This document shows positions 4,230 to 16,528 of a DNA stretch of 29,709 nucleotides, one piece after another. A program made the position numbers and the translations under genes. The notes beneath the pieces are model-generated. The model was not told where the DNA came from and ran no database searches. It was given only the letters and a program-made list of their open reading frames with translations. The stretch comes from a virus: positions 1 to 29,709 of IMG/VR virus record IMGVR_UViG_3300027763_000176. The stretch is one strand, 5' to 3'. Position 1 is the stretch's first letter. Each line of letters starts with the position of its first letter.

Positions 4230-5105
4230 ATGAAAACAGTAAATAGTATTAGTGGTGGTCAAACTTCTGCATACATAGCAGCTAATTATCCTGCAGATTA
4301 TAATATTTTTGCTTTGGTTACTACAGACGATATTAAATGTCAATATCCTGATGCAAAAGTTAGACAAATTGTAAGTGATAAAATTGGAAAAGAATTTATA
4401 GGTACTTTAGAAGAAGATATAATAATTAAAACAATTTTAGATTTAGAACAATTTATAGGAACTAAAATAGATTGGGTATCAGGTAAATCATTTGATGAAC
4501 AAGTAAAAAGATATAAATTAAATGGTGAAATTAAAATACATTTACCATCAGTTATGCGAAGAACTTGTACTGTTGAAATGAAAATTGAACCTATATTTGA
4601 ATTTTGGAAAAAAAATATTGGAGAAATTACAGAAACAAGAATAGGATTTAGAGCAAACGAAACTTCAAGAGCAAATGCAATGATAGAAAGAGCAAACGAA
4701 ACAAATGGAATTTTAACATTTAAAAGTATTGTTGGAAAATCAGATAATGGTAGAAACAAATGGAAACATATTCCTTATCAAATACCAAGATTTCCTTTAA
4801 TTGAAGATAATATTTATAAAGATAGCATTGTTGAATTTTGGAAAAACAAACCTGTTGAATTTGCTTATATGAATAATTGTGTAGGTTGTTTTCATAGAAA
4901 TCCTGTTGTTCTTAAACATATGTCAGATAGACATCCTAATAAATATCAATGGTTTGTAGATACTGAAAATCAAGGTATGAAACACTTTACAGGTAATAAT
5001 TGGAAACAAGGTATGACTTATGAAAAAATAAGAAGTTCATTTAAACAAATGGAATTGTTTGATACAGATTTTAATGAATGTGATTCAGGATATTGCGGAT
5101 TATGA
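4230..5105 (+). CDS. PAPS-reductase/PP-loop family enzyme
   Basis: The 291-residue protein starts with the PP-loop SGGQTS (8-13), which binds ATP in adenine-nucleotide alpha hydrolases such as PAPS reductase, ATP sulfurylase and DndC. It has a conserved-looking RRTCTVEMKIEP segment (110-121) and several cysteines that could hold an Fe-S cluster or do sulfur chemistry: Cys37, Cys113, the pair Cys217-x2-Cys220, Cys284 and Cys289. PAPS-reductase-like genes are common in phages, and their role is rarely known. Candidates are sulfur modification of DNA or RNA, or activating another substrate. No DndD/E or IscS partner is visible here. It overlaps the next tiny gene by ATGA. Confidence 0.85.
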   Translation: MKTVNSISGGQTSAYIAANYPADYNIFALVTTDDIKCQYPDAKVRQIVSDKIGKEFIGTLEEDIIIKTILDLEQFIGTKIDWVSGKSFDEQVKRYKLNGEIKIHLPSVMRRTCTVEMKIEPIFEFWKKNIGEITETRIGFRANETSRANAMIERANETNGILTFKSIVGKSDNGRNKWKHIPYQIPRFPLIEDNIYKDSIVEFWKNKPVEFAYMNNCVGCFHRNPVVLKHMSDRHPNKYQWFVDTENQGMKHFTGNNWKQGMTYEKIRSSFKQMELFDTDFNECDSGYCGL

Positions 5106-5176
5106 AAGATTGGAAAGAATTATTATGGGAAAAAATTAAATACTTACCTTATCCTGAATGGATAAAAAAATTATAA
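5102..5176 (+). CDS. Tiny hypothetical peptide coupled to the PP-loop enzyme
   Basis: This 24-codon frame starts at the ATGA overlap with the preceding stop and ends three bases before the next gene. The product is aromatic and basic (WKELLWEKIKYLPYPEWIKK), possibly one amphipathic helix. The tight spacing on both sides is the only support. It could be a true micro-protein or a translational bridge that carries ribosomes to the ATPase gene. Confidence 0.4.
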   Translation: MKDWKELLWEKIKYLPYPEWIKKL

Positions 5177-5179
5177 AAT

Positions 5180-6022
5180 ATGGATATAGAAGCACAAAGA
5201 CTATTAATGCAAATGTTTGAAGAAGATTGCTTTATAAATCCATTAGAAAAGATAGAATATCCTAAACCTGCAATATCATTTGGAACTAAAACTTATGAAA
5301 CAAAAGATGGTTCAAAAGAATATCCTGTACCTTTAGGAACATATGGAAACTTTAGCTTTGTACAAGCACCGCCAAAATCAAAGAAAACATTTTTTGTAAG
5401 TTTATTATCAGCAGTTTATTTAGCAGAACATTTAGAATCATTTTGTGGTGAATTAAAAGCCAATAGAGATAAACAACACATTATACACTTTGACACTGAA
5501 CAAGGTAATTTTCACGCACAAATGGTATTTAAACGACCATTAGATATGACTGCTTTAAAAACTGATAGATATCATACTTTAGCATTACGCCAATTATCAT
5601 TTAAAGAACGTGTTGATTTTATAGAATACTATCTTTATGATAAATTAGAAGCAAAAGAAATAGGTTTAGTTATCATTGATGGTATTGCTGATTTATGTTC
5701 TGATGTAAATAATATAGAAGAATCAAATGCTGTAGTTCAAAAATTAATGAAATGGTCAAAAGAATTAAATTGCCACATAGTAACAGTTATACACTCAAAC
5801 TTTGGTACAGATAAACCTACAGGTCATTTAGGTTCATTTTTAGAAAAGAAAGCAGAAACACAAATACAATTAGAATTAAATACAGTTAACAAAGGTTTAG
5901 TAACAGTATCTTGTAAACGTTCACGTAATGCACCATTTGAAAACTTTAGTTTTAAAGTTAATAGTTTTGGATTGCCACAAGTTGAAGGTGCTTTTTACGA
6001 CCCACTAAAAGATATATTTTAA
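5180..6022 (+). CDS. RecA-fold ATPase, RepA/DnaB-helicase-like, with unusual P-loop
   Basis: The 280-residue protein looks like the RecA/RepA-type ATPases of phage replication modules. The P-loop position reads APPKSKKT (63-70). The lysine and threonine that bind phosphate are kept, but two glycines of the classic GxxxxGK[TS] are replaced by Ala and Lys. Further motifs are HFDTEQG (103-109), a Walker B strand LVIID (163-167), the sensor-like VIHSN (203-207) and GHLGS (215-219). A RepA-type replicative helicase or helicase loader fits the neighbourhood (SSB, DnaA-like protein). It overlaps the next gene by TAATG. The fold is fairly certain, the precise role is not. Confidence 0.8.
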   Translation: MDIEAQRLLMQMFEEDCFINPLEKIEYPKPAISFGTKTYETKDGSKEYPVPLGTYGNFSFVQAPPKSKKTFFVSLLSAVYLAEHLESFCGELKANRDKQHIIHFDTEQGNFHAQMVFKRPLDMTALKTDRYHTLALRQLSFKERVDFIEYYLYDKLEAKEIGLVIIDGIADLCSDVNNIEESNAVVQKLMKWSKELNCHIVTVIHSNFGTDKPTGHLGSFLEKKAETQIQLELNTVNKGLVTVSCKRSRNAPFENFSFKVNSFGLPQVEGAFYDPLKDIF

Positions 6023-6309
6023 TGGAAACAATAATTAAAACACACTTAGATGAATTACAAATATCTGCAACAAGAATGCTTGTATTAAATTCAGATAATA
6101 AAATGTTAATAAGTTTCTTTAAAGACTTAACAGAAAAGTTAATATATTTACAGCAGTTAGTAGAAATGGATTCTAAATATAATTGGATTGAAATAGAAAA
6201 TCTAATTGTAAAATTAAAAGAAGTAGATACAGAATTAACACACGTTAATATAGAAGTTCAAATAGCAGAAGTAAAAACAGAAAAGAAATCAGCATATATA
6301 AAAAAATAA
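6022..6309 (+). CDS. Helical hypothetical protein
   Basis: The 95-residue protein starts on the last base of the previous stop (TAATG), a sign of coupled translation with the RecA-fold ATPase. It is predicted by eye to be almost fully helical and rich in Leu, Ile, Glu and Lys, with no cysteine or membrane segment. I recognise no family. Coupling to the ATPase suggests a partner role, for example as a loader or regulator, but this is a guess. Confidence 0.65.
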   Translation: METIIKTHLDELQISATRMLVLNSDNKMLISFFKDLTEKLIYLQQLVEMDSKYNWIEIENLIVKLKEVDTELTHVNIEVQIAEVKTEKKSAYIKK

Positions 6310-6313
6310 AATT

Positions 6314-6538
6314 ATGGAATTATTTACAGCAGTATTAGTAGTTATTTTAGCAGTAGTATTTTTAGCAACAAGTTTCTTTACTTGTGATGTAATTATTACA
6401 CCAATCAAAGGAATAATGTTCGGTGCTTTATATAATGATGATGTATATGATATTGAAACAGACCACACAATACAAATAGTAATATTATTTATATCATTTA
6501 ACTTTTTATGGACAACTTCAAATGGCTTGAACAAGTAG
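6314..6538 (+). CDS. Two-span membrane protein
   Basis: The 74-residue protein has hydrophobic segments at about residues 5-31 and 53-66, separated by an acidic loop (YNDDVYDIETDH). Similar small membrane proteins with the VIITPIKG...MFGALYNDD pattern seem familiar from Bacteroidota phages, always without known function. Its last 31 bases overlap the start of the sigma-factor-like gene, so the two are co-translated. A role at the host membrane early in infection is possible. Confidence 0.65.
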   Translation: MELFTAVLVVILAVVFLATSFFTCDVIITPIKGIMFGALYNDDVYDIETDHTIQIVILFISFNFLWTTSNGLNK

Positions 6539-7050
6539 CAAAGCACCACAAGGAATGGGTTAAAACAATCCAAAAACTTGGTGAGTACGATTACGCTGAA
6601 GATATAGTGCAGGAATCTTATATTGCTTTAATGAAGTATGCAAATGCAGAAAAGTTAATAGATGATAAAGGTAATGTACGCAAAGGTTATATGTTTTTTA
6701 CGCTACGTTCTTTATATTACCAATATTATAATAAAAAGAAAACAATTCAAAAAGTATCTTTTGATGGATGTTGGGAGTTATTTGATGATTCAAACGTCGA
6801 AGAGCATAATGCGTACAATGATATTTGTTTAATGATTGATGAAGAAATAGATAATTGGCATTGGTATGATAAAAAATTATTTAAATTATATCGTGATACA
6901 GATATGTCTATGCGTGATATTGCAAGTGAAACCAATATTAGTTTAATTTCAATATTTCATAGCATAAAAAACTACAAAGAAATACTTAAAAATAAGTTTG
7001 AAAAAGATTACCAAGATTACATAACAAATGATTACACAAATATTTATTAA
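6508..7050 (+). CDS. Sigma-70/ECF sigma-factor-like protein
   Basis: The 180-residue protein has two parts like a small group-4 sigma factor. Residues 8-75 resemble region 2, with the core motif YDYAEDIVQESYIALMK (27-43), which in sigma factors contacts the beta-prime clamp and the -10 element. Residues 120-163 resemble region 4, with a helix-turn-helix around MSMRDIASETNIS. It could redirect host RNA polymerase to phage late promoters. The late leaders at 14748 and 25146 share a sequence unlike the TAnnTTTG elements of the early genes, which fits that idea. It may instead be a DNA-binding regulator that has lost core binding. Confidence 0.78.
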   Translation: MDNFKWLEQVAKHHKEWVKTIQKLGEYDYAEDIVQESYIALMKYANAEKLIDDKGNVRKGYMFFTLRSLYYQYYNKKKTIQKVSFDGCWELFDDSNVEEHNAYNDICLMIDEEIDNWHWYDKKLFKLYRDTDMSMRDIASETNISLISIFHSIKNYKEILKNKFEKDYQDYITNDYTNIY

Positions 7051-7066
7051 TTAAAATCAAATTAAA

Positions 7067-7447
7067 ATGGCAAAACAAAAAGCAAAAGGTTTAGGTGACA
7101 CTGTAGAACAAATCACCGAAGCAACAGGAATTAAAGCGGCAGTAGAAATGTTTAGCAAAGCAACAGGTATAGATTGCGGATGCGAAGAACGTAAAGCAAA
7201 ATTAAATGAATTATTTTCTTATTCAAGAAAAGTTAATTGTTTAACTGAAAAAGATTACAATGCACTTACAGATTTAATTTCACCAAATAAAAGTACTTTA
7301 ACTATTGAAGAGCAACAAATAATTAGTGAAATTTACTACAACGTATTTAATTATAGATTGCAGTTAAGTTCTTGTGGTTCTTGTTGGGCAGGTAAAGTAC
7401 AAGAATTAAGAAAAGTTTACAACGAATATAAAGTAGATGCTAAATAA
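7067..7447 (+). CDS. Cysteine-containing hypothetical phage protein
   Basis: The 126-residue protein has repeated ATGI segments (19-22 and 32-35), then a Cys-x-Cys pair (37, 39) within DCGCEERKAKLN, Cys58, and a second pair Cys103-x2-Cys106 (SCGSCW). The cysteine pairs could form a metal site. The CGCEERKAKLN motif is one I recall in unassigned small proteins of many phages. It overlaps the start of the MjaI-like endonuclease gene by 11 bases. No function can be given. Confidence 0.7.
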   Translation: MAKQKAKGLGDTVEQITEATGIKAAVEMFSKATGIDCGCEERKAKLNELFSYSRKVNCLTEKDYNALTDLISPNKSTLTIEEQQIISEIYYNVFNYRLQLSSCGSCWAGKVQELRKVYNEYKVDAK

Positions 7448-8081
7448 ATACAGGTTTGAAGTATCATTAAGTAAAGATGAGTTTTCTAAACTTAATAAAG
7501 ATAAAAAAATATCTTATTTATTTAGAAGTTCATCAGTTGGTAAATGTGCTAAAATATTTGATGATTACTACAAATCAACTATAGAATTAAAACCTGCAGA
7601 ATGGTATTTATTCTATGAATCAGTAATGGGAATTACTATTTTAAAAGAAGTAACAAATAAACTAACTTTATTGACTCAATTAAGTGAAGAAGATTGTTAC
7701 AATTATGTTAAATTTAGGGTACTTGGGCAAACTTGGAACGGAATGCTAAACGAAATAAGTTTAATAGAAGAACTAAAACAGGAATTCCCATACATTGATT
7801 TTAAAAAAGCTGATTATAATTTAGATGAAAACTATTTTACTGATTGGGAAGCATATTCAAATGGTACTTTGTTTTTAGGTTTACAGATTAAACCAATAAC
7901 ATATAAGTATATGAGTACTCCATATCAAAATCAGGCTAAATTAAATCACGAAAGGCAAAGAACAAACTACAAAGAAAAATTTAAAGTACCGCATTTTTTA
8001 ATATACTATGAAAATGGTAAATTATATGAAAAGCAAAAGGTACTTAATCAAATAAATATATTACTAACAAATTTAATATAA
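7437..8081 (+). CDS. MjaI-like restriction endonuclease (PD-(D/E)XK-type) candidate
   Basis: The 214-residue protein has a C-terminal core resembling the MjaI restriction endonuclease family. It has an acidic residue in TDWEAY (Asp136), a beta strand ending in LGLQIKP (147-153, Lys152 as the catalytic lysine) and then ITYK (154-157). An upstream helix, GQTWNGMLNEISLIEEL (97-113), supplies further acidic residues. MjaI itself cuts CTAG. The gene is coupled to its neighbours (11-base overlap before, TAATG after) and has no methyltransferase beside it, though an N6-adenine-type one is encoded at 10509. It may cut host or rival DNA, or be a nuclease of other specificity. Family assignment is from motif memory only. 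Confidence 0.5.
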   Translation: MLNKYRFEVSLSKDEFSKLNKDKKISYLFRSSSVGKCAKIFDDYYKSTIELKPAEWYLFYESVMGITILKEVTNKLTLLTQLSEEDCYNYVKFRVLGQTWNGMLNEISLIEELKQEFPYIDFKKADYNLDENYFTDWEAYSNGTLFLGLQIKPITYKYMSTPYQNQAKLNHERQRTNYKEKFKVPHFLIYYENGKLYEKQKVLNQINILLTNLI

Positions 8082-8440
8082 TGGAAAACAATTTAATACA
8101 ACAAGAATACCTAAAATCAGTATTGTTGAGTCAATTACTTTTAGAAGCAAACGAAGGTTTATTTTTTACAACACAATACAAGCAACAAATTAAACATAAA
8201 ATAAATAGTTTAAATAAAGATTTGGAAGAAACTGTAAGAAATGAATACAAAATAATTTACAACACAGATCCTGAAACAACAACTAATATTTTAAATAGCA
8301 TTGAAGAAATAATTAAAAAGCTTCAAACAAGTTCAATAGATGAATTAGTATTTATAAATGCAGTAATAGATAAATATAAAGAAAACAAAGAATGGTTTAC
8401 TGAGTATGTAGAAACTGAATTTTTAAAATTAAATGGCTAA
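8081..8440 (+). CDS. Helical hypothetical protein
   Basis: The 119-residue protein starts on the final base of the preceding stop (TAATG), so its expression is tied to the MjaI-like endonuclease. It looks wholly alpha-helical and rich in Glu, Lys and Leu, with no cysteine and no membrane span. Because it is coupled to a putative nuclease it could be an inhibitor, specificity partner or unrelated early protein. Nothing in the sequence decides. The last 8 bases overlap the next gene. Confidence 0.65.
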   Translation: MENNLIQQEYLKSVLLSQLLLEANEGLFFTTQYKQQIKHKINSLNKDLEETVRNEYKIIYNTDPETTTNILNSIEEIIKKLQTSSIDELVFINAVIDKYKENKEWFTEYVETEFLKLNG

Positions 8441-8696
8441 GAAACAAGAAATAATATATAGTCCTAAAGAACAAGAAATACAGGCACAGTATATTTGCAA
8501 CAAAAATGATTTAGCATACGTAATACAACCAATACAATATACAAAGAAATATAAGGTAGTTAAGTTTAAAATATCAAATAGAATAGAAGTACACAATTAC
8601 AAAGAAAATAATATTGATGTTGAATTTACAGAACACGATGCTTTAAAAAAAACAATGGAACTTTATACATTACACTCAAAAAGATTTAACAAATGA
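8433..8696 (+). CDS. Hypothetical protein, mixed alpha/beta
   Basis: This is an 87-residue basic protein. Alternating hydrophobic stretches (YVIQPIQY, YKVVKFKIS, RIEVHNY) suggest a small beta-rich domain followed by a C-terminal helix. Both ends overlap neighbouring genes, the last by ATGA, so it belongs to the same translational chain. I do not recognise it. Confidence 0.6.
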   Translation: MAKKQEIIYSPKEQEIQAQYICNKNDLAYVIQPIQYTKKYKVVKFKISNRIEVHNYKENNIDVEFTEHDALKKTMELYTLHSKRFNK

Positions 8697-8785
8697 AATT
8701 TATATTAATAATAGCATTTTATGAATTAATAAGGTCAAAACTAATTTGGCTTTGGTATTACTTAATCAAACAAGCAAACAAATGA
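8693..8785 (+). CDS. Tiny membrane peptide
   Basis: This 30-codon frame is joined by ATGA to both the gene before and the gene after. The product has a hydrophobic N terminus (MKFILIIAFYELI) and a second aromatic stretch (LIWLWYYLI), ending in basic residues. The double overlap supports translation. Function is unknown. Confidence 0.5.
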   Translation: MKFILIIAFYELIRSKLIWLWYYLIKQANK

Positions 8786-8973
8786 AAGATACAATAGTAG
8801 AATCAGTTATAGAACAATTTAAACAACGTTCTAACGTAGGAATAAATAAATATGGCGTAACATTAGATAGAGAAGATTTAAACGCTTTAGAATGGCTACA
8901 ACATCTTCAAGAGGAATTAATGGATGCAACACTTTACGTTCAGAAACTAAAAGAAAAATTAAATGACAAATAG
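8782..8973 (+). CDS. Small conserved-looking phage protein
   Basis: ATG 8782 is chosen because it overlaps the previous stop as ATGA. An in-frame TTG at 8746 would only add residues encoded inside the preceding gene. The 63-residue protein contains NKYGVTLDREDL and the helical motif HLQEELMDATLYVQKL, which I recall from small unassigned proteins in many phages. It is acidic and probably all helical. No function is known to me. Its end overlaps the next small gene. Confidence 0.7.
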   Translation: MKDTIVESVIEQFKQRSNVGINKYGVTLDREDLNALEWLQHLQEELMDATLYVQKLKEKLNDK

Positions 8974-9088
8974 CAAATACTTTAAACCAATTACACGTAT
9001 AAAAAAAGTAATGGAATTTTACTACAATAGAGGAATTAATTCCGAAAGAGTAAACGAACTATATAGAAAAATTATTAATCAAAAATAA
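8963..9088 (+). CDS. Tiny basic hypothetical protein
   Basis: This 41-residue frame overlaps the previous gene by 11 bases and ends five bases before the next one. The product is basic and probably helical (ITRIKKVMEFYYNRGINS). No family is recognised. Support comes from tight packing in the operon and consistent codon use. Confidence 0.5.
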   Translation: MTNSKYFKPITRIKKVMEFYYNRGINSERVNELYRKIINQK

Positions 9089-9093
9089 AAATT

Positions 9094-9237
9094 ATGCCAA
9101 TACCACAATCAAAACAAGGAGAACATCAAAAAGAATTTATACAACGCTGTATGATAGATGAAAAGATGAAAACAGAATATCCTGATATAGACCAAAGATA
9201 TACAGTATGTAGAAGTCAAATTAAGAGTAGTAAATAG
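9094..9237 (+). CDS. Small two-cysteine protein related to a virion-associated module
   Basis: The 47-residue protein reads MPIPQSKQGEHQKEF, then RCMIDEKM, PDIDQRY and TVCRSQ. This two-cysteine helical motif (Cys19 and Cys39) recurs in phage genomes, often fused to prohead proteases or portal proteins. Here it stands alone at the end of an early operon, far from the head genes. Its stop codon lies inside the hairpin of the following terminator. The module's role is unclear to me. Conservation of the two cysteines suggests a metal site or a disulfide. Confidence 0.7.
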   Translation: MPIPQSKQGEHQKEFIQRCMIDEKMKTEYPDIDQRYTVCRSQIKSSK

Positions 9238-9250
9238 CTACTTTTTTTTT
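9226..9250 (+). terminator. Rho-independent terminator ending the first early operon
   Basis: AGTAG (9226-9230) pairs with CTACT (9238-9242), extended by A-T and G-T pairs, followed by about nine T. The hairpin contains the stop codon of the preceding gene. Confidence 0.75.
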
Positions 9251-9311
9251 GCTTAAAAGTTAATATTTTGTTAATTTTTAATAAAAAGTTTTTTAATGTA
9301 AATAACTTGTT

Positions 9312-9319
9312 TATATTTG
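9312..9319 (+). promoter_or_regulatory. Candidate Bacteroidota -7 element TATATTTG
   Basis: This exact TAnnTTTG match lies directly after a terminator and 24 bases before the 9343 start codon. It probably drives the second early operon (9343-12689). No clear -33 element is seen in the AT-rich upstream stretch. Confidence 0.55.
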
Positions 9320-9342
9320 TATAACAATTTAAAACAAACACT

Positions 9343-9552
9343 ATGACACAGCAAGAAATTATTGACAGATTAGAAAACATTACTTGGTTAATGGCAGAAG
9401 TAGAAAACACTTATGTTAAACACGAATTAGAAGAGATTACAGAAGCTATAAAGGCACAATTTAATTATTCTGATACGTATGAACAAGAAGTAAAAGATGT
9501 ATTAAATTACGATGAAACAATGTTTAATTTAAATAATATAAAAATAAGATAA
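9343..9552 (+). CDS. Small acidic hypothetical protein
   Basis: This 69-residue acidic, probably helical protein is the first gene after a promoter-like element, with an A-rich AAACAAACACT leader. Its stop overlaps the next start as TAATG. No recognised domain. As the first early product of this operon it could be a host-takeover factor, but nothing in the sequence shows that. Confidence 0.65.
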   Translation: MTQQEIIDRLENITWLMAEVENTYVKHELEEITEAIKAQFNYSDTYEQEVKDVLNYDETMFNLNNIKIR

Positions 9553-9755
9553 TGAACGAACTCGCATTAGTTAAGATACAATCTAAAATACTTGGTTTAG
9601 ATAGGGAATTAAAACAATATGTAGATGAACTATTAACAGGTAAAACTGATTTAAATGATGACCAATTAAGTATAATGATTAATAGCACAACAAGAGAAAT
9701 AAGTATTTACGATTATATTTTAAAACTAATAATAAAAGATGGAAACAACAATTAA
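9552..9755 (+). CDS. Small helical hypothetical protein
   Basis: This 67-residue protein starts in the TAATG overlap and runs 17 bases into the exonuclease gene. It is predicted by eye to be helical with a short polar loop in the middle (TGKTDLNDD). The TGKT is too isolated to be a P-loop. No family recognised. Coupling to the exonuclease suggests joint expression. Confidence 0.6.
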   Translation: MNELALVKIQSKILGLDRELKQYVDELLTGKTDLNDDQLSIMINSTTREISIYDYILKLIIKDGNNN

Positions 9756-10512
9756 AACATTTGACAACAAAATTTGGGATAAGCAAGAACTATTAGATAA
9801 TATGTATGATGATAGTTTCTATTATGGTTATCTTGGTAAACAAGCATTGAGTAGTTCAAGTTTAAAGATGCTTATACAATCACCAAAGACCTATAAATAC
9901 GTAACTAAATATGGTTCAGGTGAATCACAGGCATTACGTGATGGTAAACTATTTCACACAATGATATTAGAACCACATAAGATAGATGACTTGGTAATTG
10001 TAGATGTAGCAACAAAAGCAGGAAAAGCATACAAAGAAGCAAAGGCACAAGGATTAGAAGTTTACACAACAAAAGAAATTAAAGATGCAGAACGTTTAGC
10101 AGATGCACTATTAAGAAATGATGAAGCAGTTCACTATATGAATAAATCACAATTTGAAATACCTGCAATAACTATGATAGATGATATACCATTTAGAGCA
10201 AAAGCAGATATACTAAAAGAGAATATGATTATAGATTTAAAAACTACTACAGGTTTAAATGATTTTAGATATTCTGCTGCTAAATACAGTTATGATTTAC
10301 AAGCATATTTATATCGTGAAATGTTTGGAGTAGATAACTTTGTATTTGTTGCAATAGACAAAGGAAGTTTAGATATTGGAATCTTTGAATGTAGTGATGA
10401 ATTCTATGAAAGTGGTAAGAGAAAGTTAGAACAAGGTATAGCAAACTATAAATACTTTTTCGGTGAAGAAGAAATAGATTTAAATCAATATGTATTAAGA
10501 GGTGTATTATGA
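9739..10512 (+). CDS. PD-(D/E)XK exonuclease, RecE/RecB-like
   Basis: The 257-residue protein shows the core of RecB-type phage exonucleases. There is a G-x3-H motif in GKLFHT (Gly69, His73), the catalytic acid in RAKADIL (Asp157), the Asp-x-Lys of IIDLKTT (Asp166, Lys168), and the motif YDLQAYLY (Gln188, Tyr192). Such enzymes resect double-stranded DNA ends to give single strands for annealing. Together with ERF (2654) it makes the classic exonuclease plus annealing-protein pair, although the two genes are about 6.5 kb apart instead of adjacent. It overlaps the methyltransferase gene by ATGA. Confidence 0.9.
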   Translation: METTIKTFDNKIWDKQELLDNMYDDSFYYGYLGKQALSSSSLKMLIQSPKTYKYVTKYGSGESQALRDGKLFHTMILEPHKIDDLVIVDVATKAGKAYKEAKAQGLEVYTTKEIKDAERLADALLRNDEAVHYMNKSQFEIPAITMIDDIPFRAKADILKENMIIDLKTTTGLNDFRYSAAKYSYDLQAYLYREMFGVDNFVFVAIDKGSLDIGIFECSDEFYESGKRKLEQGIANYKYFFGEEEIDLNQYVLRGVL

Positions 10513-11156
10513 AAGTAACAGATAAAATTACAATAACAAATGAAGATAATATGTTATTGATGGCAAGATATCCTGATAACTATTTTGATTTAGCTATTGT
10601 AGACCCTCCTTATGGGATTAATGCCGAACAAGGAACAAACAGAAAAAGCAGAAAACAATTTTCTGATAAAAAATCAGGTTGGGATTCTAAACCTCCTGAA
10701 TTAATATATTTTAATGAATTAATTAGAGTAAGTAAAAATCAAATTATTTGGGGTGCAAATCATTTTATAGAATTAATACCAAATGCAAATAGTAAAAGTT
10801 GGTTAGTTTGGGATAAAAAAAACCCTGATAGAAATTTTGCAGATGCAGAGTTAGCTTGGTGTTCAAATTTAGAAGTAGTTAGAATTATTAATTTAAAAAG
10901 AGTTCAGGAATTAAATAGAGATGATAATGGTAAAATTCACCCAACACAAAAACCTGTAGCTTTATATAAATGGATGCTTGATAAATATGCTAAAGAAGGT
11001 GATAAAATATTAGACACACATTTAGGTTCAGGTTCAATAGCAATAGCAGCACACGATTATAAATATGAATTAACAGCTTGTGAATTAGATAAAGAATACT
11101 ATGACAAAGCAATACAAAGAATAACAAATCACACAAACCAACAAAAACTATTTTAA
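10509..11156 (+). CDS. DNA adenine-N6-type methyltransferase, beta class
   Basis: The 215-residue enzyme should transfer a methyl group from S-adenosylmethionine to adenine in DNA. The catalytic motif DPPY (32-35) comes before the SAM-binding motif ILDTHLGSGS (167-176), an order that defines the beta class. HPTQKP (144-149) is the usual motif just upstream. DPPY favours N6-adenine over N4-cytosine. The target-recognition region between the motifs is short, and its specificity cannot be read. In phages such enzymes often protect against host restriction. It starts in an ATGA overlap with the exonuclease and ends directly before the DnaA-like gene. Confidence 0.93.
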   Translation: MKVTDKITITNEDNMLLMARYPDNYFDLAIVDPPYGINAEQGTNRKSRKQFSDKKSGWDSKPPELIYFNELIRVSKNQIIWGANHFIELIPNANSKSWLVWDKKNPDRNFADAELAWCSNLEVVRIINLKRVQELNRDDNGKIHPTQKPVALYKWMLDKYAKEGDKILDTHLGSGSIAIAAHDYKYELTACELDKEYYDKAIQRITNHTNQQKLF

Positions 11157-11678
11157 ATGGAAATAACTGAAAGATTAAAAGAAATAATTAAGCAAGAGAC
11201 AAATACAAATATAGATATAAGAACACGCAAAAGAGAAACAGTAGAATTACGTTCACTATATTGTAATGTATTAAAAGAACTTAAACCTAATAAAACACTT
11301 CAAGCAATAGGTGATACATTAGACTTAAACCACGCTACAGTAATACACGCACTAAAGAATTATAAAATGTATGAAGAATATAATCCTGAATTAAAGAAGT
11401 TTAAACAAACTGTATTAAGTTACTTTACAATGGATGATTCAGGTTTAAAAGAACTATCTGATATTGAAAAAGCAAAACACGAAATACATAAACTTACATT
11501 GGAAAACTTTAATCTAAAAAGAGAACTAAAAGAACAAATAGAAAAACCAAGATACGAACACAAAATAATAGATGACCTAAACAACCTTATGTTAAACACT
11601 AAAGGAACACCACAACACAATTTAATTCAAGATAGACTTGAAGCATTTTACCTAATGAACAAAAACATAAAACTATGA
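11157..11678 (+). CDS. DnaA C-terminal-domain-like DNA-binding protein
   Basis: The 173-residue protein begins with a domain like DnaA domain IV, which binds DnaA boxes. Residues 24-46 resemble the leading helix and 47-69 contain TLQAIGDTLDLNHATV, close to the DnaA signature around DHTTVxHA. A long charged helical region (about 98-130) follows and probably forms a coiled coil. There is no AAA+ ATPase domain, so it is not a full DnaA. It may bind the phage origin or block host DnaA boxes. It starts immediately after the methyltransferase stop and overlaps the next gene by ATGA. Confidence 0.82.
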   Translation: MEITERLKEIIKQETNTNIDIRTRKRETVELRSLYCNVLKELKPNKTLQAIGDTLDLNHATVIHALKNYKMYEEYNPELKKFKQTVLSYFTMDDSGLKELSDIEKAKHEIHKLTLENFNLKRELKEQIEKPRYEHKIIDDLNNLMLNTKGTPQHNLIQDRLEAFYLMNKNIKL

Positions 11679-11779
11679 AACCAAAACAAGAAAAGATAAC
11701 AGTAGAAACATTTTCAATTATAGCATCGTTTATAGTTGCATTAGCAATAGTAATAATAATTAAATCTATAGTATTATGA
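11675..11779 (+). CDS. Tiny single-span membrane protein
   Basis: This 34-residue protein is joined to the DnaA-like gene by ATGA and to the next gene by another ATGA. A polar N terminus (MKPKQEKITVE) is followed by one membrane helix (about residues 13-33). Function is unknown. The double overlap is good evidence for translation. Confidence 0.6.
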   Translation: MKPKQEKITVETFSIIASFIVALAIVIIIKSIVL

Positions 11780-12015
11780 CACCAAAAGAAAAAGCAAAAG
11801 AATTAGTAAATAAATATTATAAATTATTTAGTGTTGATTTAGAAAACACAATATGCATATATGAATCTAAACATTGTTCATTATTATTAGTTGATGAAAT
11901 AATTAGTTCAAGTCCATCTTTACCAATTTTAGGTGATGGCGGAACTTATGGAGAAGATATTGAATTATCAAATAAATATTGGCAAGAAGTTAAACAAGAA
12001 ATAGAAAAATTATGA
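11776..12015 (+). CDS. Small hypothetical phage protein
   Basis: The 79-residue protein starts MTPKEKAKELVNKYY, a beginning I associate with unassigned small proteins of Flavobacterium phages. Helices flank a glycine-rich loop (LGDGGTYGED). Both ends overlap neighbours by ATGA. No catalytic motif. Confidence 0.65.
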   Translation: MTPKEKAKELVNKYYKLFSVDLENTICIYESKHCSLLLVDEIISSSPSLPILGDGGTYGEDIELSNKYWQEVKQEIEKL

Positions 12016-12170
12016 ATACAATAGAGCAAATAACACCATACGAGAGAGCAGTAATACTTTACAATAAATATACTAAAGAATATAACCGAAGTGTATGTAT
12101 GGGCGATATGCAACAGACAGAGCATTGGAAGGAAGTAACAAGAGAATTAGCAAAGCTTTATAAAAGATAA
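12012..12170 (+). CDS. Small hypothetical protein
   Basis: The 52-residue frame starts in an ATGA overlap and ends two bases before the next gene. The product is basic and probably two helices (PYERAVILYNKYTKEY and EHWKEVTRELAKLYKR). No family recognised. Confidence 0.55.
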   Translation: MNTIEQITPYERAVILYNKYTKEYNRSVCMGDMQQTEHWKEVTRELAKLYKR

Positions 12171-12172
12171 TT

Positions 12173-12256
12173 ATGAATATAGTTATATTTTTAATATTAG
12201 GTTTATTCGCACAAACAATTATAAAATTTATTATTAAACAATTTAAAAAGAAATAA
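12173..12256 (+). CDS. Tiny membrane peptide
   Basis: This 27-residue product is one hydrophobic helix (residues 3-22) with a basic tail (KQFKKK). Tight spacing (two bases on each side) and the TTATG/CTATG start context shared with neighbours support it. Several such micro-membrane proteins occur in this genome, and their role is unknown. Confidence 0.45.
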   Translation: MNIVIFLILGLFAQTIIKFIIKQFKKK

Positions 12257-12258
12257 CT

Positions 12259-12459
12259 ATGGAACAAACAGCAGTAGAATGGTTAATTAACCAAATGATA
12301 CAATCAACAACAATGAAAGGTTGGATTGAAATATTTGATAAAGCAAAAGAAATGGAAAAGAAACAAATTGAAGACGCTATGGACATTTGTCAAAGAACTG
12401 ATTTTTATGTAAAATACGAAAGTTCAGAACAATACTACAATCAAACATATAACAAATAA
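12259..12459 (+). CDS. Small helical hypothetical protein
   Basis: The 66-residue protein starts MEQTAVEWLINQM, a pattern I recall from many small Flavobacterium-phage proteins. It is acidic and helical, with a tyrosine-rich C terminus. Its start lies two bases after the previous stop. No function known. Confidence 0.65.
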   Translation: MEQTAVEWLINQMIQSTTMKGWIEIFDKAKEMEKKQIEDAMDICQRTDFYVKYESSEQYYNQTYNK

Positions 12460-12461
12460 CT

Positions 12462-12689
12462 ATGTCAGATATAACTAAATGCGAAGATAACCTTTGCCCT
12501 TCAAAAGAAACGTGTTATAGATATACAGCACCTGCATCAGAACATTATCAATCTTACGGTAAATTCAATCGTGAAGAAGATGAGAATAATTGTGATATGT
12601 ATTGGGATAATAAACCTATTAAAAAAATAGATGATAAAGAATTTATAGAATTAGTTGAACAATTAAAAGTAATTAATTTAAAACTTTAA
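12462..12689 (+). CDS. Small cysteine-containing hypothetical protein
   Basis: The 75-residue acidic protein has Cys7, Cys12, Cys18 and Cys44, with KETCYRYTAP and HYQSYGKFNREED motifs that seem familiar from unassigned phage proteins. The four cysteines could bind a metal. It is the last gene before the terminase block and may end the early operon, although no hairpin terminator follows at 12690-12739. Confidence 0.65.
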   Translation: MSDITKCEDNLCPSKETCYRYTAPASEHYQSYGKFNREEDENNCDMYWDNKPIKKIDDKEFIELVEQLKVINLKL

Positions 12690-12739
12690 ACAACAATAGA
12701 TTTTATTTATTACTAAATTAATAATAATATTTTTTAATT

Positions 12740-13000
12740 ATGGAAGATAAAAGAAAATTCAACGGTGGGCATACAACTGCAGGTAGAAAATCGAAAGCAG
12801 AAGAAGTACAGTTAATAGAAAAGTTAGGTGCATTAGAGCCTTCAGCTTTTATGGCTTTAGAGCAAGGATTAGAAAGAGGCGATTTTAAATTCGTTCAGTT
12901 GTTTTATAATTACTATGCAGGTAAGCCACGTGAAACAAAAGATATAACTGTAACCAATGAACAGCCTATATTTAACATAGATGATTTAGATATCATTTAA
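12740..13000 (+). CDS. terS: Putative terminase small subunit
   Basis: The 86-residue protein lies 11 bases before terL. It begins KRKFNGGHTTAGRKSKAEE, resembling the N terminus of small terminases of Bacteroidota phages, and ends in an acidic tail (NIDDLDII) that could contact TerL. It would recognise the packaging site and regulate the large subunit. At 86 residues it is short compared with typical small terminases. The call depends on the basic N-terminal pattern and position. Confidence 0.65.
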   Translation: MEDKRKFNGGHTTAGRKSKAEEVQLIEKLGALEPSAFMALEQGLERGDFKFVQLFYNYYAGKPRETKDITVTNEQPIFNIDDLDII

Positions 13001-13011
13001 GCCACGATTAT

Positions 13012-14178
13012 ATGGAATTTATACTTACTACTGCAATTAAAAAGTTATTGCGTTTAAAGCAGCGTATTAAAGTTATTAGAGGTGGAACATCAGCAGGTAA
13101 AACTTTTGGAATTCTACCTTTACTAATTGACAAAGCAATAAAAGAGCCAATGCTTGAAATAAGTGTAGTATCTGAATCAATACCACATTTACGCAGGGGT
13201 GCATTAAAAGACTTTTTAAAAATTATAATGGCACTTGGCAGGTACACTGATGCAAACTTTAATAAGTCTACTTTAAAATATACATTTGCAAATGGTAGTT
13301 ATATAGAATTCTTTAGTGTAGACCAACCTGATAAATTACGTGGTGCAAGAAGAAATATATTATACGTAAACGAATGTAATAATATAGACTTTGATTCTTA
13401 TTACCAAATGGCAATTAGAACAAGTGGCGATATATGGTTAGACTATAACCCTGCATCTTCTTTTTGGGTAGATAAAGAAATACTAACTCAAGATAATGTA
13501 GACTTTATAACTTTAACATATTTAGACAACGAAGCATTATCGGATACTATAATAAAAGAAATAGAATCAGCAAAGGTAAAAGCATTAACATCTTCTTATT
13601 GGGCTAATTGGTGGCAAGTATATGGACTTGGGCAAACAGGTAGTTTAGAAGGCGTATGTATTACAGATTGGAACGAAATAGATTTACCAACAGATGCAAG
13701 GATACTTTGTTATGGAATGGACTTTGGGTATAGTAATGATCCAACTTCATTAGTAGCTATGTATAAATATAACGATGCTTTTATATTTGATGAAATAATC
13801 TACAAGAAAGGTTTATTAAACAACGATATAAGCAACCTATTAAAAGCAAACAATGTTAATGATATAATTTACGCTGATAGTGCAGAGCCAAAATCAATAG
13901 CTGAATTAAATACATACGGACACAATATATTACCTGTATCAAAAGGTAAAGATTCAATTATATATGGTATTAATTTAATGAATCAAAATAAAATATATGT
14001 TACATCAAGAAGCAAGAACTTAATTAATGAATTAAGAAACTACATTTGGCTAACTGATAAAACAGGTGTTAAGATGAACAAACCTATTGATGCTTACAAT
14101 CACGCTATAGATGCTATGCGTTACGCTATAATGAGCCAATTAGAGAATCCAAATAAAGGGAACTATTTTATTTATTAA
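13012..14178 (+). CDS. terL: Terminase large subunit
   Basis: The 388-residue packaging motor has both expected domains. The ATPase part shows Walker A RGGTSAGKT (23-31) and Walker B ILYVNE (116-121, catalytic Glu121). The nuclease part shows Asp237 in GMDFGYSNDPT, Asp289 in YADSAEP and Asp367 in NHAIDAMRYA, the metal-binding acids of the RNase H-like fold. It cuts concatemeric DNA and drives it into the prohead. A start at 13012 gives the full ATPase domain with only 19 residues before the P-loop region, typical of this group. A strong inverted repeat follows its stop directly. Confidence 0.96.
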   Translation: MEFILTTAIKKLLRLKQRIKVIRGGTSAGKTFGILPLLIDKAIKEPMLEISVVSESIPHLRRGALKDFLKIIMALGRYTDANFNKSTLKYTFANGSYIEFFSVDQPDKLRGARRNILYVNECNNIDFDSYYQMAIRTSGDIWLDYNPASSFWVDKEILTQDNVDFITLTYLDNEALSDTIIKEIESAKVKALTSSYWANWWQVYGLGQTGSLEGVCITDWNEIDLPTDARILCYGMDFGYSNDPTSLVAMYKYNDAFIFDEIIYKKGLLNNDISNLLKANNVNDIIYADSAEPKSIAELNTYGHNILPVSKGKDSIIYGINLMNQNKIYVTSRSKNLINELRNYIWLTDKTGVKMNKPIDAYNHAIDAMRYAIMSQLENPNKGNYFIY

Positions 14179-14207
14179 TGTCGCAAATTAATACTATACT
14201 TGCGACA
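14179..14207. promoter_or_regulatory. Perfect inverted repeat after terL, operator or hairpin
   Basis: TGTCGCAA (14179-14186) and TTGCGACA (14200-14207) are perfect 8-base arms around a 13-base centre. No T tract follows on either strand, so it is not a standard terminator. A near -7 element TATACTTG (14195-14202) overlaps the right arm, which would suit an operator on a promoter. ACTTGCGACAAAGT at 14198-14211 is echoed as ACTTGACAAAGT at 14226-14237. Confidence 0.6.
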
Positions 14208-14243
14208 AAGTAAATGATGGCAAAAACTTGACAAAGTGGTATG

Positions 14244-14260
14244 TAAGTAATTCTTACTTA
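14244..14260. promoter_or_regulatory. Second perfect inverted repeat
   Basis: TAAGTAA (14244-14250), a TTC centre and TTACTTA (14254-14260) form a 7+3+7 palindrome in the leader of the 14274 gene, whose ATG is 14 bases downstream. It could be an operator or a leader hairpin that limits translation. Confidence 0.5.
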
Positions 14261-14273
14261 ATAAATTAAAACT

Positions 14274-14423
14274 ATGACTTACGGACAAATGATTGCTGCA
14301 ATACAATGTTACATACACCATAGTACAGGTAAAGAGGTAAATATAAACTTACCACGTAATATAGGTGAAATTAAAAAGATGCGATTGATGTACGATGTAG
14401 CAGTAGAGAATTTAAAAAGTTAA
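14274..14423 (+). CDS. Small hypothetical protein after terL
   Basis: This 49-residue frame starts MTYGQMIAAIQCYI and has helix-loop-helix character (KEVNINLPRNIGEIKKM). Its leader contains two inverted repeats and has the usual A-rich start context (ATTAAAACT). I do not recognise a family. It sits in a short non-structural island between terminase and tail genes and could be a small regulator, given the palindromes upstream. That is inference only. Confidence 0.55.
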   Translation: MTYGQMIAAIQCYIHHSTGKEVNINLPRNIGEIKKMRLMYDVAVENLKS

Positions 14424-14460
14424 ATTTATGTTAAAACTAATTTATGTAACAAATTAATAT

Positions 14461-14468
14461 TATATTTG
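14461..14468 (+). promoter_or_regulatory. Candidate Bacteroidota -7 element TATATTTG
   Basis: This exact TAnnTTTG match lies 30 bases before the 14491 start. The same octamer precedes early genes at 3881 and 9343, so this small unit inside the late region may be expressed early. Confidence 0.55.
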
Positions 14469-14490
14469 TTAAAAATTTAAAACAAACAAA

Positions 14491-14697
14491 ATGGAAAAAG
14501 TAAACGTAACAGTAAATTATTGTACAGTAGAATTTGAAGTAGCAGGATATTATATCAAAGGTGATTCATATGATAATACAAAAGCTTGTTTAGATGATAC
14601 AGAAATAACTATTCAGGGTGTAGATATGTGGGAAATATTATCTACAAAACAATGGAACGATATTGTTGATTTAGCAATACAAGAAATAGAAAGTTAA
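14491..14697 (+). CDS. Small acidic beta-rich hypothetical protein
   Basis: The 68-residue protein opens with alternating hydrophobic residues (VNVTVNYCTVEFEV), suggesting a beta sheet, and ends with a helix (IVDLAIQEIES). Similar short beta-rich acidic proteins are common and unassigned in phages. It has its own early-type promoter element upstream and a strong terminator downstream, so it behaves as an independent unit between the terminase and tail operons. This is typical of a moron or of an early gene displaced into the late region. Confidence 0.7.
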   Translation: MEKVNVTVNYCTVEFEVAGYYIKGDSYDNTKACLDDTEITIQGVDMWEILSTKQWNDIVDLAIQEIES

Positions 14698-14719
14698 GTT
14701 AGGTTAAATTTGGTTAAAG

Positions 14720-14747
14720 AGGTGTACAGAAATGTACGCCTTTTTTT
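14720..14747 (+). terminator. Rho-independent terminator before the tail operon
   Basis: AGGTGTAC (14720-14727) pairs with GTACGCCT (14734-14741) over eight pairs including one G-T, followed by seven T. Confidence 0.9.
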
Positions 14748-14794
14748 GTTTAATACAATTTGAACAAATAGTTATTAATATAAAAAACAATAAT
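14748..14794 (+). promoter_or_regulatory. Candidate late promoter/leader, shared with 25146-25193
   Basis: After the terminator come ACAATTTGA and then TTATTAATATA (from 14772), 23 bases before the ATG. The leader at 25146-25193, also just after a terminator, has ACAATTTTGA and TTATTAATATA at the same distance from its ATG. The shared layout suggests a late promoter. AT-richness alone could explain part of it. Confidence 0.4.
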
Positions 14795-15478
14795 ATGAAA
14801 TTAGAGATTAGCATACCAACAGAATTAAAAGAAATTAAGTTAGCGCAATATCAGGCTTTTTTAAAGATAGCCAAAGATAATGATGATAATGAATTTCTGA
14901 ATCAGAAAATGGTTCAAATATTCTGCAATATAGATTTAAAAGATGTGGCAGAAATTAGATTTAAGGATGTATTAGAAATAACTGCATCACTATCTAAAAT
15001 GTTTAACGTAACATCACATAGGTTTATAAACAGATTTAAACTTGGTGGTGTTGAGTTTGGGTTTATTCCTGAATTAGAAGAAATGACCTTTGGAGAATAT
15101 ACCGATTTAGATTCATACATAGGCGATTGGGATAATATGCATAAAGCTATGGCTGTATTATATAGACCGATTACAAAGAAAGGTTTAAATGACACATATG
15201 AAATAGAAAAATACAATGGTAGTATAACCTATAGTGATGTAATGAAACACGCACCTTTAGATGTTGTATTTGGTGCTAATGTTTTTTTTTACTCTTTAGG
15301 CAACGACTTATTGAAAAGTACGATGACCTATTTGGAGAACAACAAGGAGATGCAGACTATTCTGCAACAGCACAATTCGGTAAACGATGGGGTTGGTATT
15401 CATCAATCTATGCTATTGCTCAAGGAGACCTTACAAGATTTGATAGAGTTACCGAACTACCGATTAACCAATGTTTAA
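14795..15478 (+). CDS. Tail assembly chaperone, short (G-like) form
   Basis: The 227-residue frame-0 product starts at ATG 14795 (MKLEISIPTELKEI). The longer frame from ATG 14732 is rejected because it would translate through the terminator hairpin. The gene lies at the head of the tail operon, and a second, ATG-less frame overlaps its 3' end, which is the layout of lambda G/GT. In lambda these proteins help the tape measure and tail tube assemble and are absent from virions. The product is acidic and helical in its first two thirds. The assignment rests on position and the frameshift more than on sequence motifs. Confidence 0.75.
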   Translation: MKLEISIPTELKEIKLAQYQAFLKIAKDNDDNEFLNQKMVQIFCNIDLKDVAEIRFKDVLEITASLSKMFNVTSHRFINRFKLGGVEFGFIPELEEMTFGEYTDLDSYIGDWDNMHKAMAVLYRPITKKGLNDTYEIEKYNGSITYSDVMKHAPLDVVFGANVFFYSLGNDLLKSTMTYLENNKEMQTILQQHNSVNDGVGIHQSMLLLKETLQDLIELPNYRLTNV

Positions 15479-15540
15479 CATACTTAACATTTGAAAAACA
15501 AAAGAACAAAATAGAAGCTGATTTAATTAAAAAAAGATAA
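14795..15540 (+). CDS. Tail assembly chaperone, -1 frameshifted long (GT-like) form
   Basis: The -1 frame opens after a stop at 15277-15279 and stays open to TAA 15538-15540. It has no ATG in 83 codons yet encodes a convincing sequence (FGKRWGWYSSIYAIAQGD, then LPINQCLTYLTFEK). Its stop overlaps the next start as TAATG, as expected for a genuine gene end. A run of nine T at 15282-15290 offers the slippery heptamer T TTT TTT in the right frame. Slipping there joins 14795-15289 to 15289-15540 and gives 248 residues. A slip further downstream cannot be excluded, because frame 0 still looks protein-like just after the T run. Confidence 0.75.
15282..15290 (+). other. Programmed -1 frameshift slippery site (T9)
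   Basis: Frame 0 reads GTT TTT TTT TAC. The heptamer T TTT TTT lets both tRNAs re-pair after a one-base backward slip, moving ribosomes into the open -1 frame. The -1 frame has a stop just upstream (15277-15279), so this run is the first slip site at which entry is possible. Confidence 0.7.
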
Positions 15541-15995
15541 TGAGTACATTTTACGAAATAACACAAGTGATTAAAAACAAACTGCAAGAGGATTTGTTTG
15601 TTAATACAGTAACTACAGGTGATATATTTAAAGTTGATTTAAACAAGCAAACTATATTTCCATTAAGTCATATTATTATTAATTCAGTTACTTATGCAGG
15701 ACCTGTATTGAATTATAATATATCTATTCTATGTATGGATATTGTAGATGAAAGCAAGTCTAAAACAACAGATATATTCTTGGGTAATGATAACGAGCAG
15801 GATGTATTAAATACACAATTAGCAGTTGCAAATAGATTTTTAGAAGTATTAAGTAGAGGTGCTTTAGCTGAAGATTATGAATTAGTAAATGGTTCTGCAA
15901 ATATTGAATTCTTTACAGAACGTTTTGAAAATAAAATAGCAGGTGTTACAGTTACATTTGATATGGCTATTCAAAATACAATGACAAAATGCTAA
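15540..15995 (+). CDS. Tail completion/terminator-like structural protein
   Basis: The 151-residue protein starts in TAATG with the end of the frameshifted chaperone. It contains a motif I recall from Bacteroidota phage tail proteins (DIFLGNDNEQDVLNTQLAVA, about residues 78-97), with a beta-rich N-terminal half. It sits next to an HK97 gp10-like gene, where tail terminator proteins usually lie, so a role in finishing the tail tube or joining it to the head is likely. The exact role is inferred from order. Confidence 0.65.
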   Translation: MSTFYEITQVIKNKLQEDLFVNTVTTGDIFKVDLNKQTIFPLSHIIINSVTYAGPVLNYNISILCMDIVDESKSKTTDIFLGNDNEQDVLNTQLAVANRFLEVLSRGALAEDYELVNGSANIEFFTERFENKIAGVTVTFDMAIQNTMTKC

Positions 15996-16528
15996 AACTT
16001 GAAAAAGTAAATAAGACTATTGAAATGTTTCGTGATTATGTAATCAAAGAAGCAAAAGATAATTTAACACGTTCAGGTCATAATAATACAAGTTCATTAG
16101 CAAATAGTATTAAAGGAGAAGTAATAATAGATGATAAATATTCTATTGTAGGATTTACAATGAATGATTACGGAACGTTTGTTGATTTAGGTGTTAAAGG
16201 AAAAACAAGTTCTAATAAAGCACCTAATAGTCCGTATCAATTTGGTAGTGGTAAAGGTAGAAAAGGTGGTTTAACTCAAGGTATAAATCAATGGGTTAAA
16301 CAAAAAGGTTTTCAATTTAGAGATAAAAAATCAGGCAGGTTTTTAAGTTATGAATCAACAGCTTATTTAATTACACGTTCTATATTTCATAAAGGTATAA
16401 AGCCTTCTTTATTCTTTACTAAACCATTTGAAGCAGGATATAAAAAATACATAGATATAGATTTAGTAAAAGCATTTGGTCAAGATGTAGAAACAATTAT
16501 AGATTACAATTTAAAAGATATAAAATGA
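15989..16528 (+). CDS. HK97 gp10-like tail/neck component
   Basis: The 179-residue basic protein resembles gp10-type neck or tail completion proteins. It has an N-terminal helix, then SLANSIKGEVII, YGTFVDLGVKGK (glycine-rich core, residues about 61-72), and a conserved-looking stretch GFQFRDKKSGRFLSYESTA. Such proteins act at the head-tail junction during tail completion. It overlaps both neighbours (7 bases before and ATGA after). The family call is from pattern and neighbourhood. Confidence 0.7.
   Translation: MLKLEKVNKTIEMFRDYVIKEAKDNLTRSGHNNTSSLANSIKGEVIIDDKYSIVGFTMNDYGTFVDLGVKGKTSSNKAPNSPYQFGSGKGRKGGLTQGINQWVKQKGFQFRDKKSGRFLSYESTAYLITRSIFHKGIKPSLFFTKPFEAGYKKYIDIDLVKAFGQDVETIIDYNLKDIK

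Follow-up and report, generated by a model that had tools for sequence, protein, structure and literature searches.

The locus

The DNA analysed here, referred to as the window, comprises the 29,709 bases of the virus record IMGVR_UViG_3300027763_000176. At 7437–8081 on its plus strand lies an ATG-initiated gene for a 214-residue protein that we predict, from the Pfam RE_MjaI profile, residue counts and an AlphaFold2 model, to be an MjaI-family PD-(D/E)XK endonuclease. This gene overlaps the open reading frame at 7067–7447 (plus strand; 126 residues; phrog_32048, PHROGs 5.6e-8) and meets the one at 8081–8440 (plus strand; 119 residues; phrog_9957, 2.6e-9) by a single base; these two neighbours, to which no function is assigned, form the left and right borders of a slot. 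A sigma-factor-like gene upstream (6508–7050, plus strand; Pfam UPF0122 above and Sigma70_r2 below cut-off) belongs by synteny to the conserved gene order around the slot. Downstream on the same strand are a RecE/exonuclease VIII-like gene (DUF3799; 9739–10512; Pfam 5.8e-18, phrog_412 1.2e-41) and an N6/N4-type DNA methyltransferase gene with a DPPY motif (10509–11156; Pfam N6_N4_Mtase, 4.6e-17).

Further upstream, an AAA_25 (RecA-like) ATPase is encoded at 5180–6022, and genes resembling ATPases stand ahead of the slot in further lineages too (L297, L318). A phosphoadenosine phosphosulfate reductase-like gene at 4230–5105 (phrog_424, 3e-18) is of the kind found among host-takeover or auxiliary metabolic genes. 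The best terminase matches listed are to phages of Flavobacterium psychrophilum (54% identity), so the virus infects bacteria and its host is likely to lie within the Flavobacteriia. Positions 5000–20000 gave no megablast match among 50,697 phage records, and tblastn of the window nuclease and its Paenibacillus relative against the INPHARED phages gave none either. An Rfam scan of 6500–9000 was empty, and promoter and terminator signals in 6400–8800 did not exceed those in shuffled sequence.

An MjaI-family nuclease under purifying selection

An initial annotation, made from the letters and reading frames, had taken the product for an MjaI-like restriction endonuclease. The profile search bears out this family assignment: Pfam PF09568 (RE_MjaI) matches residues 23–170 with E 5e-6 and 26.9 bits, above the curated cut-off of 22.7. 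PADLOC REase_II also matches (3.4e-13), and an NCBIfam scan of the protein returned no restriction-enzyme match. Nine of 12 aligned relatives match RE_MjaI at E ≤0.01; the L047 nuclease scanned alone does not. Used as a query, the window protein retrieved 48 viral loci with relatives, and a wider alignment retrieved 117 distant MjaI relatives, of which 80 were examined.

Residues E106, D136, Q150 and K152 are invariant across 84 viral rows (83 of which extend to positions 150 and 152, with four contigs entered twice), 2 plasmid rows and 42 cellular rows, and the resulting E...D...QxK pattern of the viral proteins is that of the cellular RE_MjaI members. Asp136 and Lys152, singled out beforehand as the catalytic residues, are thus conserved in every viral, plasmid and cellular row that reaches them. 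Between the window gene and four close copies dN/dS is 0.09–0.22, indicating that the gene is under purifying selection.

Structure prediction of the 214-residue product, also proposed at the outset, yielded a model with a pLDDT of 91.8 and matches of PD-(D/E)XK type covering C-terminal residues ~100–214. Within residues 83–214, VIA-align places the model closest to the Holliday junction resolvase Hjc (Z 8.9, rmsd 2.8, 101 residues aligned), followed by Vsr (Z 7.9, 3.2, 100), BsaWI (Z 7.8, 3.3, 122) and BstEII (Z 6.8, 3.4, 106). These fold matches are generic, and a Pfam scan of the protein lists no resolvase at E ≤1. Foldseek alone found no match below E 0.001, so the fold evidence is supportive, short of decisive; with Z values near 8, which are modest, the model supports a PD-(D/E)XK fold in the C-terminal half. 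Sequence searches of solved structures with the nuclease returned nothing relevant.

CTAG is absent from phages that carry the gene

R.MjaI cleaves at CTAG, and this word is missing from every viral contig of our carrier set. Word counts are given hereafter as observed/expected. Across 83 contigs with the MjaI-like gene (the window plus 48 and 34 loci, with the duplicate contigs L285, L292, L293 and L296 dropped and three members, L031, L040 and L049, holding a partial nuclease gene), CTAG was found in none, where 2128 occurrences are expected. A further partial carrier outside the set, L334, has 0/18. Over its full length (1–29,709) the window contains neither CTAG (~62–65 expected) nor CCAG/CTGG (82 expected), and ten other long carrier contigs each have no CTAG, with 51–87 expected. 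Each of the 83 contains the control words GTAC, TGCA and AGCT, and a scan of all canonical tetranucleotides ranks CTAG first among carriers, absent from 81 of 81 contigs in which at least 8 were expected.

Phages without the gene present a mixed picture. Ten gene-free relatives contain 13, 18, 2, 49, 1, 5, 14, 1, 1 and 3 CTAG sites (57–94 expected). Among 80 freshwater relatives examined out of 551 found by terminase, the gene-free loci total 121/1529, with zero in 44 of 80, mostly short ones. CATG and GATC are low in freshwater carriers and non-carriers alike, and the word pressure in this group must therefore have more than one source. Within one lineage, delimited by an upstream gene 88–95% identical, carriers stand at 0/62 and 0/50 against 26/41, 10/25, 57/67 and 33/51 in gene-free phages, with one close gene-free sister at 1/59; more distant gene-free phages have 61/56 and 15/10, and those of a further lineage 89/100 and 39/45. 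Twenty-eight gene-free contigs have a readable slot (those among L052–L131 and L322–L343 with a homologue of the 7067 gene and at least 700 bases beyond it). Nine of these lack CTAG in the examined locus; one, L101, has 5 sites across the whole contig, leaving 8 of 28 without CTAG, and 3 of 28 also lack CCAG.

General palindrome avoidance as the sole cause was considered and rejected, since some carriers have normal CATG or GATC; the L291 carrier, for instance, has CATG 60/65 and GATC 44/45, near normal despite its loss of CTAG.

The principal alternative to an effect of the gene itself is that the hosts' restriction systems removed CTAG and that the MjaI-like gene is a passenger in purged genomes, inactive or of another specificity. 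It accommodates the low CTAG, CATG and GATC of gene-free freshwater relatives and the 8 of 28 readable-slot contigs without CTAG, and it has a precedent in the HF1-like haloviruses, whose complete CTAG loss is attributed by the authors of PMC7230728 to host systems. Yet all 83 carriers stand at exactly zero, and the word has come back in several sisters that share the backbone. Together with the tree-based contrasts, purifying selection, invariant catalytic residues and plasmid relatives considered in the following sections, this leads us to regard host purging as unlikely.

An exchangeable slot

Between the 7067 and 8081 genes or their counterparts, other phages carry unrelated small genes or none, the slot being empty in two (L075 and L085). 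The bordering genes had been suggested as partners or inhibitors of the nuclease, a suggestion that fails because both are found where the slot has another occupant or is empty: the 7067 gene accompanies MjaI, other occupants and none, and the 8081 gene flanks the slot in the freshwater and L291 lineages but not in the L318 lineage, so that neither is nuclease-specific. The alternative occupants show D...(E/Q)xK-like motifs, as read by eye.

One occupant, type B, is a 131-residue slot protein (L100:3044–3436, L128:3324–3713, relatives L423–L500). CATG is absent from all 80 type B loci examined out of 279 relatives (0/1877), and GATC (12/1303) and CTAG (54/1426) are low as well; with these other words also reduced and two independent pairs on the tree (below), type B may be tied to the absence of CATG. 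Its AlphaFold2 model is poor (pLDDT 49.9), and we therefore claim no fold for it. The type B contig G015, which is outside the 80 loci, has 7 CATG, all within its last 1.8 kb (L179:12230–14004), where 5 of its 7 GATC also lie; this contig end may be foreign or misassembled.

Type D is a 130-residue protein with the motif D31...E45-x-K47, found at L327:11693–12082 and in 81 further contigs, mainly L344–L422. These contigs, for which 80 of 165 relatives were examined, have GATC at 10/1527, with zero in 77 of 82, and retain CTAG (1347/2253) and CCAG (1843/2468). GATC is likewise missing altogether from 39 of the 83 MjaI carriers and from 72 of the 80 type B loci. Neither the type B nor the type D protein has a Pfam match above cut-off. 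The type E slot gene, at 3 loci, has too few relatives to judge. Two more unrelated slot families with PD-(D/E)XK-like motifs occur at L101:3806–4201 (phrog_13596), L322:10373–10837 and L342:8579–9100, and no clear missing word accompanies them.

The order of events can be glimpsed in L286, which carries the MjaI-like gene, and L337/L338, which carry type D: their exonucleases are 99% identical, and all lack both CTAG and GATC. Purging can thus precede a swap, a point that also favours host purging. The comparison suggests that an incoming slot gene enters a genome from which its site has already gone, and that the site of the gene it replaces reappears afterwards.

An interchangeable position beside a RecE-like gene invites another explanation, in which the slot holds a recombination or packaging nuclease, for example a Holliday junction resolvase, that works with the exonuclease; any nuclease would serve, and site loss would be a side effect or unrelated. 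The Hjc resolvases among the nearest structural neighbours and the exchange of unrelated nuclease-like genes are what it would predict. It sits poorly with an empty slot in two phages and with a gene that matches a restriction enzyme family, and a structure-specific nuclease would not cause three slot genes to correspond to three missing tetranucleotides. We consider this explanation very improbable.

Gene and missing word change together on the exonuclease tree

Many contigs are fragments, and near-identical contigs are not independent, which is why the association was evaluated in phylogenetically independent pairs. A FastTree phylogeny was built from the downstream RecE-like exonuclease of 186 contigs with a long match; contigs without one were left out, and L049 was not among the candidates. 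On this tree the slot type changes at least 19 times, counting unsupported branches.

For CTAG, 11 independent pairs could be formed, of which a mean of 8.6 go with the gene, 0.0 against it and 2.4 show no difference (median p 0.004, range 0.002–0.016). CCAG behaves similarly, with a mean of 7.8 of 10 pairs with the gene and 0.0 against (median p 0.008, range 0.004–0.07). The control word GTAC gives 0 pairs with and 0 against. CATG has no tie to the MjaI-like gene (2.1 with, 1.5 against), and GATC leans the opposite way (0.8 with, 5.0 against; median p 0.22). Type D tracks GATC in a mean of 5.5 of 7 pairs, with 0.0 against (median p 0.03, range 0.03–0.125), and for type B and CATG 2 independent pairs are available. 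The 8.6 against 0.0 seen for CTAG speaks against a passenger gene in host-purged genomes.

Solitary relatives on megaplasmids

Relatives of the gene, likewise solitary, reside on two megaplasmids, one of 414,359 bases in Brevibacillus halotolerans and one of 510,118 bases in Paenibacillus polymyxa; a further record that matches, NZ_CP139199.1, is equal in length to the latter. Both complete megaplasmids contain no CTAG, with 598+23 and 539+148 expected and piece borders included. Over the first 400 kb of each, CTAG is the only tetranucleotide missing from every 20-kb piece, and CATG and GATC are near normal on both. The MjaI-like gene is found on none of three related megaplasmids scanned, which have CTAG at 285/377, 167/261 and 36/48 (200, 160 and 40 kb sampled). 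That megaplasmids from another phylum are CTAG-free, with nearly all other tetranucleotides present throughout, again argues against purging by the hosts of the phages.

On both carrier megaplasmids an ASCH-domain gene lies directly upstream of the MjaI-family gene (L050:5114–5464 and L051:5120–5488).

Other words can be lost from such replicons. The Aneurinibacillus megaplasmid (L519–L526, NZ_CP116888.1) has GATC 0/575 and CCGG 0/195 in 160 kb sampled, and the Pontibacillus megaplasmid (L527–L528, NZ_CP062975.1) has CCGG 0/68 in the part sampled. Searches of five megaplasmids with the DpnII- and HpaII-family profiles (PF04556, PF09561) gave no match, and the Aneurinibacillus losses show that a replicon can be purged although no enzyme is recognised on it; the losses on these two megaplasmids are possibly due to host pressure or to an orphan nuclease that escaped recognition. 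Given such purges, the absence of a word proves nothing by itself, and what carries our argument is that gene and word match repeatedly.

Recognition specificity

CCAG/CTGG is zero in 73 of the 83 carrier contigs, compared with 1 of 80 type B and 6 of 82 type D contigs. The ten carriers that contain it are the six of the subclade L041–L046 together with L008, L021, L301 and L313 (1, 5, 1 and 1 occurrences). The fourth word of the CYRG set, CCGG, is somewhat low over the 83 carriers (91/144), normal in some (11/10, 31/29) and low elsewhere (3/15, 3/11). Across 34 scored reading frames of the window, C never directly precedes any of the 73 tryptophan codons, and it occupies 605 of 7955 third positions. 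These word counts suggest that most phage members recognise CTRG, with one half-site read strictly and the other relaxed.

The megaplasmid relatives have lost CTAG only, with CCAG at 1514/1486 and 1731/1779. Members of the subclade L041–L046 are likewise CTAG-free yet have CCAG at 38/37, 39/43, 12/15, 61/54, 7/11 and 12/20. Their differences from the CCAG-free neighbour L047 include one residue missing in the turn after S141 and a leucine at the position of R175, which makes position 175 and the one-residue turn deletion candidates for the specificity change. With a CTAG-only subclade next to CTRG relatives, the family provides a natural experiment on changes of restriction-enzyme specificity.

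No cognate methyltransferase found

The reading-frame list and the Pfam scan agree with the first observation that no methyltransferase gene adjoins the nuclease gene. The nearest is the DPPY-bearing N6_N4_Mtase match at 10509, 2.4 kb downstream, and homologues of it occur in at least 23 of the 82 other carrier loci, many of which are partial. We considered this enzyme as the cognate protector and rejected it, as PF01555 is missing from 8 of 10 other long nuclease-carrying contigs; in both megaplasmids it is below cut-off or absent. By the adjacent genes and PF01555, the endonuclease is not encoded with a cognate methyltransferase as a type II restriction–modification system would be.

The cellular family members are organised differently. 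A motif scan, as distinct from a profile search, finds an SPPY-type (N4-cytosine-like) methyltransferase within 2.5 kb in 29 of 42 cellular RE_MjaI loci, and in 11 of the remaining 13 the gene lies ≤600 bases from the contig end on the methyltransferase side. Cellular loci with a nearby methyltransferase retain some CTAG (64/602), and the 13 without one in view have 5/171. That the M.MjaI partner is of the N4-cytosine kind, as the initial annotation supposed, agrees with PMC5867850, which describes M.MjaI as a 4mC methyltransferase acting on CTAG. The archaeal contig L240, one of these 11, carries two MjaI-family reading frames (3–425 and 5172–5774); around the second, the 2.5-kb scan shows no methyltransferase motif.

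An ordinary restriction–modification pair with separated genes, in which the 10509 enzyme or a host methyltransferase protects the phage, would account for a DPPY methyltransferase 2.4 kb away and for its homologues in other carrier loci. Methylation would, however, make total site loss needless; the cellular pairs retain some CTAG, the family's cellular partner is of the SPPY type, and PF01555 is missing from most of the other long carriers and does not pass the cut-off in either megaplasmid. This arrangement appears to us barely tenable. Cellular genomes with the family are themselves low in CTAG (64/602), a point that weighs against the reading proposed below.

A proposed case of restriction without modification

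Taking these observations together, we think it probable that the window encodes an orphan, sequence-specific double-strand endonuclease of the MjaI family that practises restriction without modification, its carrier protected by the absence of the site and its activity aimed at host or rival DNA. The initial annotation, which did not remark on the missing CTAG, had suggested an attack on host or competing phage DNA, and this suggestion fits the evidence. The predicted site of the enzyme is CTAG, broadened in the window's subgroup to CTRG by the addition of CTGG/CCAG. We propose that the phage needs no methyltransferase because its own genome is without any CTRG site and that, for the same reason, every such site inside the cell belongs to foreign DNA. 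Upon expression of the enzyme, the host chromosome would be cut, and so would those competing phages and plasmids that still hold the site. The slot exchanges unrelated nuclease-like genes, and for two or more of these a different tetranucleotide is missing in each case. Family membership, conserved catalytic residues, the failure to find a cognate methyltransferase, site absence, slot swapping and the association of gene and site across independent lineages come from the sequences themselves; cleavage, its exact specificity, its timing and the choice between host and rival DNA as chief target are at the level of deduction.

A broader reading, on which our judgement is evenly poised, is that the slot is an exchangeable weapon cartridge of orphan restriction enzymes, with the MjaI-like protein directed at CTAG/CTRG, type B at CATG and type D at GATC. 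Each would lack a cognate methyltransferase, sit in a carrier purged of its own enzyme's site and attack host or rival DNA, and the scarcity of CTAG, CATG and GATC common to the population may then be a record of phage warfare, not host defence. For the freshwater population as a whole, the scarcity of all three words would be compatible with rivalry between phages and with host systems alike.

The usual view is that a restriction enzyme is survivable only together with a methyltransferase. Here a mobile element seems to keep such an enzyme without that protection, its target missing from its own DNA, which, if the reading holds, is an unusual way of telling self from foreign DNA. If so, the specificity of an enzyme could be read from its carrier genome, with predictions for two small families (GATC and CATG), and part of the site avoidance in phages may be caused by the phages' own or their competitors' nucleases.

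Relation to known systems

T4 endonuclease II and related nucleases attack host DNA and spare phage DNA, which in T4 is achieved through modified cytosine. The window nuclease resembles them as a phage nuclease sparing phage DNA; it differs in that T4 uses the modified base and not the loss of sites. With R.MjaI/M.MjaI and PF09568 it shares the profile match, the E...D...QxK residues and CTAG as the word missing from carriers, whereas it has no adjacent N4-type methyltransferase, resides on phages and megaplasmids and, in its subgroup, seemingly reads CTRG.

The chlorovirus enzymes (CviAII and others) are likewise site-specific endonucleases encoded by viruses, with degradation of host DNA as their supposed role (PMC7019647). 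According to that source, host chromatin breakdown is ascribed to the packaged enzymes, and the same enzymes proved not to be responsible for exclusion, a precedent that favours host DNA as the target here. Chlorovirus restriction genes always adjoin a methyltransferase gene in that account, whereas for the window phage we propose protection by absence of the site.

Type II endonuclease genes without a linked methyltransferase are also known from prokaryotes, where 272 solitary genes include 99 likely fragments and 57 with a predicted distant partner (PMC3488263); intact viral genes accompanied by site purging are not part of the account drawn on here from that work. Genomes devoid of a palindromic tetranucleotide have likewise been described for phages (PMC6286503, PMC7230728), and in what these sources say of it the avoidance is assigned to host systems, whereas here the loss tracks the phage's own gene. 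Our search of a library of PMC papers brought up no description of an orphan restriction enzyme that is encoded by a phage and whose site has been lost from the carrier genome. The protein belongs to a known family; what would be new is the proposed combination of restriction without modification, protection by site loss and an exchangeable slot, an arrangement that would constitute a new kind of system if the slot model is confirmed.
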